In this document: positions 30,667 through 62,639 of the stretch, in pieces | Layout of the letters: every line of letters begins with the position of its first letter | Position numbering within the stretch: position 1 is the first letter of the stretch | Made by a program: the position numbers and the translations under genes | Notes under the pieces: model-generated | Told to the model about the DNA's origin: nothing | What the model saw: the letters and a program-made list of their open reading frames with translations, nothing else | Databases searched by the model: none | Assembly: GCF_000172555.1 (NCBI RefSeq) | Contig: NZ_ABOX02000008.1 | Coordinates: 124,001 to 188,000 of the forward strand | Length of the DNA: 64,000 nucleotides | Origin: Pedosphaera parvula Ellin514 | GTDB lineage: Bacteria; Verrucomicrobiota; Verrucomicrobiia; Limisphaerales; Pedosphaeraceae | Direction of reading: 5' to 3'

Positions 30667-31335
30667 TTATTGCACCGCCATGGAGCGCACTTCTTTCAGG
30701 CCGGCTTCGACTTCGGGTCTGGGTAAATCGCCAGCTGCCAGGGTTTGATCATCCTGACGGAGGAGGCGTTCGTAAAATGCCCTGGCTTCGGAAATAAGAT
30801 TGGGATTGGCTCGTTCGGTTTCGAGGATGGCGAAGAGGGCGTTCTCGGCTTTGCCATAGGCGCCGACGTGTTCGTAATGTCGCCACAATCCCGCCTGGGT
30901 GCGCAGGGGCAGTTCGACACCGGCGAGTTGTTCGCGGACGAGCTCAATCTTTGGCACGAGTTCGGGCGCTTCGAGATCGTAATCACGCAGTTGAAGGGTC
31001 AGGAGGAGGTTCAAGGCTTTAATGAGCGACTCGTGACTTTCTGCTTCACGACCTTGTCCTGAGTAGATGCGGCTTGCTTCCTGCAACACGTCGATGAGCA
31101 ACATCGCTTTTTGACGCAGGACCAGGGTGGAATCATCGTGCGTCAAACGCTCCAGAAGCTCCATCTCGGAGAGTTCGCTGACGGCTTCAGCCCCGCTGCC
31201 GAGCAATTTGGTGAAGGCTTCATCGAGATCGTTCTCGGCTTCGTCGTATTCTTGAGAATCGACCTTGTTGCGCATGCGCCGGAGAATGCGGCCCAGTTCC
31301 TCCACCATCCGAAGTATATAATCCTGGCGAATCAT
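30667..31335 (-). CDS. DUF6483-like helical protein
   Basis: The 222-residue, all-helical soluble protein starts 'MIRQDYILRMVEELGRILRR', an opening typical of what I know as DUF6483. TPR-like helix pairs follow, such as 'EASRIYSGQGREAESHESLI' and 'HYEHVGAYGKAENALFAIL'. Function is unknown; such proteins appear to be helical-repeat scaffolds. It converges on the ECF fusion gene, 52 bp apart. Its upstream side holds the operator-like palindromes of the hip remnant, which lie 108 bp from its start and could also influence it. Confidence 0.75.
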   Translation of the reverse strand: MIRQDYILRMVEELGRILRRMRNKVDSQEYDEAENDLDEAFTKLLGSGAEAVSELSEMELLERLTHDDSTLVLRQKAMLLIDVLQEASRIYSGQGREAESHESLIKALNLLLTLQLRDYDLEAPELVPKIELVREQLAGVELPLRTQAGLWRHYEHVGAYGKAENALFAILETERANPNLISEARAFYERLLRQDDQTLAAGDLPRPEVEAGLKEVRSMAVQ

Positions 31336-31442
31336 TGCTGATTAAAGAATCGGAGCGGTCCCAGGGTTTTGTCAACTGTAAGCTTGCTGATTTGATATTT
31401 GAGGCACTTGGAAAAATGAAAACAAGACAGTAAACAACCATA

Positions 31443-31462
31443 TTTACTGCTATGGCAGTAAA
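31443..31462. promoter_or_regulatory. Operator-like palindrome 1 ahead of the hip remnant
   Basis: TTTACTGC-TATG-GCAGTAAA is a perfect 8+8 inverted repeat. A second site at 31515 matches it at 15 of 20 positions. Two similar palindromes 72 bp apart upstream of a HipB-like reading frame fit a HipB operator pair (inference from family behaviour). Confidence 0.55.
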
Positions 31463-31514
31463 TTATATGGGACACTTCCATGCTAAAGCATTCATAGTGC
31501 TAAAATCTTGTCTT

Positions 31515-31534
31515 TATACTGTTATGACGGTAAC
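31515..31534. promoter_or_regulatory. Operator-like palindrome 2 ahead of the hip remnant
   Basis: TATACTGTTATGACGGTAAC is a diverged copy of the site at 31443-31462, conserving ACTG...TATG...GTAA. It lies just upstream of the hipB-like remains. Confidence 0.5.
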
Positions 31535-31551
31535 TGAACACCGAATTAAAA

Positions 31552-31715
31552 CATATTGCCAAAGGCCGCCAGTTGAGCGAACTCACATAAGAAGCGTTCG
31601 CGAAGCTGGTTAGAGTTTGCAGGACGCTTTTATCTCGGAAATGGGAAAGAAAATGGTCCAAGATGGTACCTTTAAGAAAATCCTGACCGCGCTAAATATC
31701 CAGCTCGTGCTTTAA
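31552..31715 (+). pseudogene. Decayed HipB-like HTH antitoxin gene
   Basis: No intact frame exists, but HipB-like pieces can be read in two frames. The first gives 'HIAKGRQLSELT', a stop (TAA at about 31588), then 'EAFAKLVRVCRT'. After a one-base shift near 31630, the second gives 'FISEMGKKMVQDGTFKKILT' and 'ALNIQLVL', ending at TAA 31715. The pieces in order match the HipB pattern 'Q..LA.LA.VSRTFISE.E.GK..VQ......L..L.I.L.L'. At least one nonsense change and one frameshift are therefore present. The gene would have been the autorepressor and antitoxin of a hip locus. Confidence 0.6.
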
Positions 31716-31754
31716 AGTTGTGTCAACGATCGCGCGCGAAACGAATTTTTATAC

Positions 31755-32063
31755 ATGAGAAAGGCAGAGGTTTTTCAACAAAACGAGTTGGCAGGCTTGC
31801 TGGAGGAATTAAGCCCGTCCGAGTATCGGTTCAGCTATGCAACCAACTATGCGGGTGAGCCCATCTCACTGACTCTCCCCGTTCGGGAAAGGCCTTATGA
31901 ATTTCAAAAGTTTCCGGCGGTGTTTGAAGGATTGTTGCCGGAAGGTCTGCTGCTCGAAGCCGTGCTCCGACGTTATAAGATTGATCGGCACGACCTGTTT
32001 ACCCAACTGCTCGTCGTTGGCGAGAATGTGGTCGGCTCGCTCACCATCAATGAGGTGAAGTGA
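31755..32063 (+). CDS. HipS-like / HipA N-terminal-domain protein
   Basis: The 102-residue protein is just the N-terminal subdomain of HipA. It opens 'MRKAEVFQQNELAGLLEELS', contains 'YRFSYATNYAGEPISLTLPV', and continues with 'FPAVFEGLLPEGLLLEAVLR' and 'QLLVVGENVVGSLTI'. In tripartite HipBST systems this small protein (HipS) is encoded between hipB and the kinase hipT and acts as the antitoxin. Here a decayed hipB lies directly upstream, but no HipT/HipA kinase follows, since the next gene is unrelated. It is either an orphan left after loss of the toxin or the stump of a truncated hipA. The frame itself is intact. Confidence 0.8.
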   Translation: MRKAEVFQQNELAGLLEELSPSEYRFSYATNYAGEPISLTLPVRERPYEFQKFPAVFEGLLPEGLLLEAVLRRYKIDRHDLFTQLLVVGENVVGSLTINEVK

Positions 32064-32203
32064 GCGCAAGTTTGGCTCTGTGCGTAAGAAAAGTGTCAAG
32101 ATGCACCCGGCGAGACTGGGAGTTAAGCCGCACCTTTGACAAGCGAGTTAATTTCGGACAGCATCGCCCGAGAGCATTTTGGAGAGAATCCGGAAAACAA
32201 ACT

Positions 32204-32746
32204 ATGGACTTCGAGGCATATCTGGTGGACTGGAAAGAGGCGACCAAGCGCGCCAAGGAAGAGCCCGCGCTGGGCGAAATGTTGGGCGAGGCAGCCTACA
32301 ACAAGGAAAAATGGATTCAGCTGTTGAATTGGTTCCCTGGTTCGGAGAACTGGTATTTTGAGTGCGCCGAGGCGTGGGAAGCCATCCGAGGCGCAGAGGG
32401 TGTTCCAGCGGAGGTCGATGCCAAAGCGCGTGAGTTTATGGACCACCTCATCACCTATTCCGACTATTGCCACGACCTGCCCGCGGAATCGGTTTTTCTA
32501 AGCATCAGTCCCGAATCCGCCGCTCGTTTCGCAGCTCTGGCCGACGATGTTGATTTCACGCTGTATCGGGATATGTTCGACTCGCAAGCCTGTGAAGACG
32601 TCCGCGAAACCCTTGCCGAGGTTTTGCAGATTGAGGATGTGGAGCGCACTTTTGAGAAAGGCTTTTTGCCCTATATAAAGCATTTCAATCGCGCCCTCGG
32701 GCTCGCCGCCAAAAAGCAGAAGGGCTTGCTGGTGCAGTTGTTTTGA
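32204..32746 (+). CDS. Hypothetical acidic helical protein
   Basis: The protein has 180 residues from the ATG at 32204; a longer frame reaches back to 32060 across the hip remnant but its translation looks non-coding. It is acidic, soluble and helical, starts 'MDFEAYLVDWKEATKRAKEE', and has many Trp residues near 'WIQLLNWFPGSENWYFECAE'. No family is recognised and no ribosome site is clear. It is not obviously part of the hip system. The 390-bp stretch after it (32747-33140) shows nothing I can support. Confidence 0.6.
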   Translation: MDFEAYLVDWKEATKRAKEEPALGEMLGEAAYNKEKWIQLLNWFPGSENWYFECAEAWEAIRGAEGVPAEVDAKAREFMDHLITYSDYCHDLPAESVFLSISPESAARFAALADDVDFTLYRDMFDSQACEDVRETLAEVLQIEDVERTFEKGFLPYIKHFNRALGLAAKKQKGLLVQLF

Positions 32747-33140
32747 GTTTGCGGCGACGCTTAAATTCAAGGCGGACAGCGGGGGAGTTGACGATCCTCT
32801 CGCACCCTATTAAACCAAGCAGTCCTGTCCCATCAGCGGACAAAGCGGAAGGCAAATCCAAAGTGCAATGCTGTACGCATCCTTCATTTCCGTGCCGGCC
32901 TGATTTTGAATTAGGAGACTACCAAAAATTTGTGCCGGAATTTTTCCATGCCTTGGAATCCACCAGGCCTTAAGCAGGATCAATTCGAGCTGGGGAGAGT
33001 TCGCCTGTGTTGTCAGAAGAGTTGTTGAATGGAGTTCCCATTGATCTGTCTGACTTTTCAGAGCCATCGCAGTGAAGAGAATTAGTTGCAATCTTTCCTT
33101 TGTGTACCATCTTCGGTCTGTTTAAATCAAGGTGATGAAT

Positions 33141-62393: not shown

Positions 62394-62639
62394 TCAGTGT
62401 ATGATGATGAGAAGCACAATATATGGGACAAGGTTGAAAAGGAGGATTCCTATTTTGTATACCGCCATGGCGGTGTAGTGGATGGTGTCGAATTGTTCAG
62501 GTGTCAGGCGGAACCATTTCGTGTGGAAGCGATAAATGCAGTCGTGAGCGAACATCAAGGCGAAGAACCATACCAGCAGGATGCAGTAGTTAATGACTGT
62601 GCACCATAGTAGGAAGTGGCGGATGAAATTGATGTTCAT
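62394..62639 (-). CDS. DUF6868-like membrane protein, copy 2
   Basis: The 81-residue protein is a paralog of the product of 61800-62039, with the same two helices ('LLWCTVINYCILLVWFFALM' and 'AVYKIGILLFNLVPYIVLLI') and the intervening 'TPEQFDTIHYTAMAV'. The loop Trp of copy 1 ('NWMYRLH') reads 'DCIYRFH' here. The two copies arose by tandem duplication, with DNA likeness extending over the ribosome-site region. Function unknown. Confidence 0.75.
   Translation of the reverse strand: MNINFIRHFLLWCTVINYCILLVWFFALMFAHDCIYRFHTKWFRLTPEQFDTIHYTAMAVYKIGILLFNLVPYIVLLIIIH

Follow-up and report, generated by a model that had tools for sequence, protein, structure and literature searches.

Layout of the locus and its operators

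The window, by which we mean the whole 64,000-base stretch of DNA that was analysed (G000:C8:124001-188000), belongs to an assembly of 7.41 Mb in 102 contigs (95.9% complete). At 155.8 kb of a 207-kb contig lies an intact hipS gene, preceded by two operators and a broken hipB gene and followed by a region in which no hipT gene was found. The features of the locus are as follows:

31444..31461, no strand: middle operator of the former hipBST promoter, TTACTGCTATGGCAGTAA, matrix score 27.8
31491..31520, plus strand: promoter-like hexamers TTCATA-18-TATACT, the second of which overlaps the proximal operator
31516..31533, no strand: proximal operator, immediately 5' of the former hipB start, ATACTGTTATGACGGTAA, score 21.8
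31534..31715, plus strand: hipB pseudogene, located by frameshift-tolerant alignment to the HipB of relatives
31755..32063, plus strand: hipS, an intact 102-residue HipA N-terminal-domain protein (HipBST antitoxin; PF13657, TIGR03071, 7vkb_B)
32064..32203, no strand: region in which hipT starts in relatives, with no hipT trace and a low coding score
32204..32746, plus strand: 180-residue ORF without known relatives, with coding-like codon use in frame

An alignment of four HipS sequences (window, L002, L003 and L004; L022 was not part of the alignment) served as the query against the 320 genomes of the order and gave matches at 1e-5 in 22 of them, including that of the window. Five matches were strong (177-197 bits), namely those of the window, L002, L003, L004 and L022; a close HipS was accordingly present in 4 of the 319 other genomes, in each case within a hipB-hipS-hipT locus with three operators. 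The sequence-only reading had proposed a comparison of gene order in related genomes, and the outcome was uniform: hipB lies before and hipT after hipS in 4/4 close relatives, one of the hipT genes being shortened. In these loci hipB encodes 77-81 residues and hipS 102, hipT overlaps the hipS stop, and the hipT product has 309-311 residues in three of the four. The other 18 matches in the order scored 27-36 bits. For 16 of them the open frame is 414-535 residues long, a length that would suit a full-length HipA; L030 and L032, the remaining two, have frames of 177 and 200 aa. In the shortened locus (L004:1039-1440 and L090, G089:C121), hipT is cut after residue 129 and hipB, hipS and the three operators are intact; the rest of this hipT was not found within the 6 kb fetched, and a Fic-like gene (by eye) comes next on the opposite strand. 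This locus is perhaps an earlier step in the same kind of loss. As for synteny, DUF6483 is present in 3 of 7 other genomes of the family, and its neighbours differ in L019, the one looked at.

The twin palindromes described in the sequence-only reading are present (TTTACTGCTATGGCAGTAAA at 31443-31462 and TATACTGTTATGACGGTAAC at 31515-31534, alike at 15/20 positions). We scored operators with a matrix made solely from the 12 operators of the four relatives, and the two operators of the window were its two best sites (27.8 and 21.8, vs 18.3-28.9 for the relatives' own sites); a score of 21.8 was reached by no site in 20 simulated 64-kb sequences. The relatives carry three operators each in 4/4 loci, at –149 to –162, –88 to –90 and –17/–18 before hipB, and the predicted palindromic sites of the window correspond to the middle and proximal ones, so that two of the three are present. 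The distal operator is absent, the best matrix score in 31330-31440 being –2.8. The spacing between the middle and proximal operators is 72 bases in the window and 70-72 in the relatives, and all columns invariant in the relatives are kept (10/10 in the middle operator and 8/8 in the proximal one, together 18/18). The promoter-like hexamers are at chance level because one match was found vs 0.8 expected in shuffles.

The pattern TTTACTGC-N4-GCAGTAAA has one exact copy in the window, which is its sole match even at ≤3 mismatches, a tolerance at which at least one match occurred in 12 of 100 shuffles. Across the assembly, the middle operator TTACYGYNNNNRCRGTAA has a single exact match. A search of the genome for further sites of the TTTACTGC-N4-GCAGTAAA type had been suggested; the assembly holds one exact site and 7 sites with one mismatch (one of them the proximal operator), vs 52 for a reversed control pattern, and additional hip operators were rejected on these counts. 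The third-best operator-like site of the window (62459-62476, ATACCGCCATGGCGGTGT, score 15.4) scores lower than the hip operators and is probably due to chance.

Uneven decay of hipB and hipS

The hipB gene of the window is a pseudogene. Compared with the relatives, the ATG start is missing, stop codons occur at 31588-31590 and at 31713-31715, and there are two gaps, one of a single codon and one of 4 bases that puts the frame out of register. Where a functional HipBST locus would have an intact repressor gene 5' of hipS there are only these remains. The broken HipB-like frame noticed earlier is genuine, with a frameshift-tolerant alignment score of 87, vs a mean of 21.4 and a maximum of 30.5 in shuffles. 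No other close HipB, and hence no replacement, was found when the assembly was queried with HipB, which lends no support to the suggestion that another repressor now uses the operators; besides the pseudogene, the query gave a match with 38% identity (E 0.004), next to apparent restriction-modification genes, and a weaker one (E 0.08). A XRE protein of ~75 residues (L016, G000:C16 around 44100) was rejected as a replacement HipB, since its neighbours resemble, by eye, a DNA cytosine methylase and a Vsr nuclease; it is perhaps the controller of a restriction-modification system.

The 102-aa frame is a Couple_hipA protein (PF13657, 1e-20; TIGR03071, 1.4e-22), in line with the HipA N-terminal subdomain proposed in the sequence-only reading, and forms the stand-alone HipA N-terminal domain of ~100 residues that characterizes HipBST. 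Its nearest solved relative is HipS(Lp) (7vkb_B, E 2.3e-32, residues 1-102), followed by HI_0666 (7e-14) and E. coli HipS (4.7e-9). The assembly holds one copy of hipS. PADLOC gave no match for HipS or for the 180-residue protein, and the one match in a scan of the genome-contig collection was partial (residues 47-87, 46%) and came from a Chloroflexi record.

We compared how far the two genes have kept the residues that are invariant in the relatives, and found 20 of 38 kept in hipB vs 51 of 54 in HipS (Fisher p 4.9e-6), the changed HipS residues being G31N, A40T and D91N. First and second codon positions were kept at 62/89 in hipB vs 124/138 in hipS (p 1.7e-4), and the operator columns (18/18) likewise exceeded the hipB codon positions (p 0.006); these tests treat columns as independent. 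In a leave-one-out control on the four relatives, the omitted one retained 38 of 40-44 hipB columns and 54 of 59-64 hipS columns that do not vary among the other three; on these columns the window retained 21-22 and 54-56, respectively, and therefore its hipS behaves as in complete loci and its hipB does not. Taken together with the intact operator columns, these comparisons indicate that hipB has long been dead and without constraint, and that hipS has been kept. Recent decay had been offered as one reason for the intact operators; because 18 of 38 otherwise invariant residues are lost, the decay of hipB is not recent. That the operators are intact speaks for a promoter still in use, without deciding between the readings discussed below.

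The conservation of hipS has its limits. In the HipS tree, the branch leading to the window HipS has about twice the length of the relatives' branches (0.46 vs 0.17-0.25), which counts against a HipS maintained as a stand-by antitoxin, and 9 of its residues occur nowhere else in the tree set, vs 3-8 for the relatives. Some relaxation of HipS is therefore possible. Compared with nine outgroup HipS proteins, the window HipS has an identity that falls inside the span of the relatives in seven cases, exceeds it in one (L047) and falls short of it in one (L053, 44 vs 46-51). Purifying selection may have acted on hipS after the loss of the toxin; what the comparisons show is that hipS was conserved past the loss of hipB.

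Loss of hipT and the possible role left to HipS

The hipT gene is gone from the locus. A functional HipBST locus would have the HipA_C kinase directly 3' of hipS, and its absence, already remarked in the sequence-only reading, was borne out: the best hipT-like score in 32061-33131 was 34.7 vs a shuffle mean of 32.6, and was equalled or passed by 24 of 100 shuffles. No hipT remnant was detected in 32061-32210 (25.0 vs a shuffle mean of 25.0, with 47 of 100 as high), nor by aligning the two ends of HipT separately (20.3 and 25.0; 72 and 70 of 100 shuffles as high). Elsewhere in the assembly there was no match to HipA_C (PF07804) at E ≤ 1, in a search whose controls gave a signal in 5 of 14 cases and whose model matches the HipT of L003 and L002 at 1e-47. 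A HipT query of the same assembly, run without a positive control, also gave no match. The claim that an antitoxin is left after loss of repressor and toxin is thus supported by the hipB-hipS-hipT loci of the relatives, the hipB pseudogene and the lack of HipA_C matches in the assembly. The antitoxin gene is here intact and, in the genome as assembled, has no toxin gene to go with it, an absence that is not absolute because the assembly is 95.9% complete.

With 102 contigs at that completeness, a hipT or an intact hipB could lie in the missing part, in which case HipS would be no orphan. We consider this very improbable, since hipS lies inside its contig and a cognate hipT would need to be elsewhere, when in the genome loci examined the two genes are adjacent; moreover, the several lesions of hipB make sequencing slips unlikely.

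The 180-residue ORF is a separate downstream gene and at most a candidate member of the hip system. It belongs to no Pfam or NCBIfam family and has one chance-level PHROGs match (E 0.23); no relative was found in the 145 other genomes of the kin set, on plasmids or on viral contigs, and the 386 other genomes of the phylum gave two weak partial matches (E 0.004 and 0.009). Its single-sequence model has a pLDDT of 45, and the predicted fold therefore says nothing. A longer frame of 228 aa from a GTG at 32060 was rejected as a gene in the place of hipT: the pattern seen in the last 180 codons (GC at the three codon positions 0.61/0.37/0.67) is absent from the first 48 (0.48/0.56/0.48). That this frame overlaps the hipS stop is therefore apparently fortuitous.

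To what extent HipS could still meet a HipT may be judged from its contact surface. The text of PMC9325769 names S38, L39, F56, E58, G59, E63, I65, K73, Q90, N91 and V92 of HipS(Lp) as contacts; G94, which the same text assigns to HipT, is taken here as a HipS residue and as the 12th contact, and the N91 of that text reads D in the aligned chain (7vkb_B). In an ungapped alignment, the window carries S, L, V, E, G, E, L, R, E, N, V and G at these positions, and 10 of the 12 are residues found in some relative, the exceptions being R73 and N91. The alignment shows that most of the positions predicted to contact HipT are kept in the window. As reported in PMC10627512, Trp65 is required for neutralization in E. 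coli HipS; the window has Leu65 and Leu66, with Glu63 kept. For L. pneumophila HipS, PMC10653801 gives Ile and Met at positions 65 and 66, and reports that alanine at 65 had no effect and that alanine at 66 partly weakened neutralization.

These positions bear on the idea that HipS has been repurposed for a new partner, for example another kinase or the protein encoded by the 180-residue ORF. In favour of this idea, hipS stays conserved in a locus that has lost its operon partners, and a coding-like gene of unknown family does lie 3' of it. However, the kept HipT-facing positions argue for the old partner, and the 180-residue gene begins 140 bases 3' of hipS and has no relative in the 145 other kin-set genomes; we regard repurposing as highly unlikely.

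The locus is a degenerate HipBST. In our preferred reading, to which we would give about even chances, its HipS is retained as a stand-by antitoxin against incoming HipT. HipS would still be made and selected in this role. If a mobile element introduced a HipT kinase, HipS would bind it and keep its P-loop in a form unable to take ATP, so that the kinase would stay off. Such a P-loop mechanism is reported for L. pneumophila HipS, with a variant involving Trp65 for E. coli (PMC9325769, PMC10653801, PMC10627512). Several observations besides the longer branch count against a stand-by HipS: there is no partner toxin in its own genome as assembled, no clear Shine-Dalgarno sequence lies 5' of the hipS ATG, hipB translation is no longer there for HipS to couple to, and the promoter match is at chance level.

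A passive remnant would look much the same: hipB would have died long ago, hipST would have persisted, and hipT would have been deleted so recently that hipS has not yet decayed. Such a late loss of hipT gives the same picture as a stand-by antitoxin, and sequence alone cannot separate the two. hipST could have lived without hipB because in E. coli HipBST, as reported, HipS by itself is the antitoxin; the window holds no trace of hipT, as a clean recent deletion would leave it; and in G089 (L004) it was the toxin gene that was lost first, with hipB and hipS intact. However, HipB is also reported to aid the neutralization of HipT by HipS, a second, late event with its left end exactly at the hipS stop is required, and the operators are kept at 18/18 despite a dead repressor. 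We therefore hold the passive remnant to be somewhat unlikely, and prefer the stand-by antitoxin.

Wider survey and comparison with known systems

We extended the survey to the phylum, in which 55 of 387 genomes, that of the window included, have a HipS-type match at 1e-10. Neighbours were assigned with HipB, HipS and HipT models that were themselves derived iteratively from these genome loci. The 29 loci examined, out of 66 matches besides that of the window, comprise 27 stand-alone HipS and 2 full-length HipA; orphans are possible among the other 37, one of which (G378:C29:3154) is covered in part by L052. All 27 stand-alone HipS are accompanied by hipB and hipT (the hipT of L068 is cut by the contig end), and for phylum and order together, both hip neighbours are present at 31/31 examined stand-alone HipS (counting the shortened hipT of L004). 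On plasmids, 3/3 HipS matches have hip neighbours. Among viral contigs, 10 distinct records comprise 8 complete hipBST loci, one full-length HipA and one lone HipS (L075), so that 8/9 stand-alone HipS have hip neighbours; the 8 complete loci are probably fewer independent cases, since the pairs L079/L080 and L082/L083 have identical coordinates and scores. The sequence-only reading had staked its case on homologues not occurring outside hip context, and among the loci examined the phage contig L075 is the one exception.

Some loci had unusual arrangements. In L044 (NZ_CP085934.1:29036-30587, a Segatella copri plasmid), the annotation divides hipT into two ORFs that overlap, and the kinase would be either split or broken. 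In L052 (G378:C29:1809-3459), two divergent hip loci adjoin on one contig, with one TGA inside the second HipS match, and the contig G662:C360 holds two HipS. A further candidate, L089, was rejected as a chance 12-residue match inside another protein.

The lone viral HipS (L075:3001-3312, IMGVR_UViG_3300037760_000121, 34,430 bases) has 103 residues (PF13657, 3e-23). Its neighbours are small genes, and further downstream come genes for a ParB-N/DNA methylase, a DUF5681 protein and a terminase large subunit (PHROG 4758, 6e-43). No hipB or hipT was found in the 6.3 kb searched, and no HipA_C in the record, which is possibly a fragment. In the HipS tree, L075 clusters with L048, L051 and L055 (support 0.92) and does not fall within the clade of the window HipS (0.96); the two lone HipS therefore most likely arose independently. 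Other HipS queries of the viral contigs yielded no second lone HipS, L075 remaining one record, and three HipS queries of the phage collection gave no match. Phage antitoxins that disarm host toxin-antitoxin systems are known, as reported for AdfB of ICP1 against DarTG (PMC11481870), and counter-defence is therefore a natural guess for the HipS of L075. On a broader view, which we find unlikely, HipS would be a free-standing immunity gene against HipT that chromosomes keep after toxin loss and that phages such as L075 would use to disarm an anti-phage HipBST.

The interest of these results lies in the uneven decay and in the existence of a phage orphan. Within one toxin-antitoxin locus, repressor, toxin and antitoxin have met different fates, in numbers open to testing. 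If a lone HipS neutralizes HipT, this would explain a possible bacterial escape from HipBST addiction, and would give a handle on whether phages counter HipBST.

Among known systems, the HipBST of L. pneumophila (PDB 7vkb; PMC9325769, PMC10653801) is the closest, with a HipS that aligns to the 102 residues of the window over the whole length and has, as in the window, a small hydrophobic residue rather than Trp at position 65. PMC10653801 describes three evenly spaced operators with 53-base gaps, bound by HipB, at the Legionella locus; the gap in the window is 54 bases, a likeness in spacing. The window differs in its dead hipB, absent hipT and one missing operator of the three. The HipBST of E. 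coli O127:H6 (PDB 7ab3-7ab5; PMC10627512) shares the HipS family and Glu63, and differs in the Trp65 reported as needed for neutralization, in place of which the window has Leu65; the Legionella operators are reported in PMC10653801 as absent from the E. coli locus.

Orphan antitoxins in Klebsiella, as described in PMC7192599, likewise are antitoxin genes without a toxin, possibly guarding against incoming toxins (anti-addiction), and that report mentions unpaired antitoxins for HipA toxins as well. The Klebsiella cases are surveyed antitoxin groups, whereas the window has a HipS with a hipB pseudogene and operators in place. A literature search, which was not exhaustive, found no paper describing a stand-alone HipS in such a role; PMC10653801 reports homologues of individual genes of the locus in eight Legionella species, and a lone HipS may therefore already be present in its Figure 1A. 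AdfB of ICP1 resembles the HipS of L075, a putative antitoxin, in standing alone on a phage; the window gene differs in lying on the chromosome, or at any rate outside any recognised phage. The HipS of the window is a new example of an orphan antitoxin, a known kind in the terms of PMC7192599.
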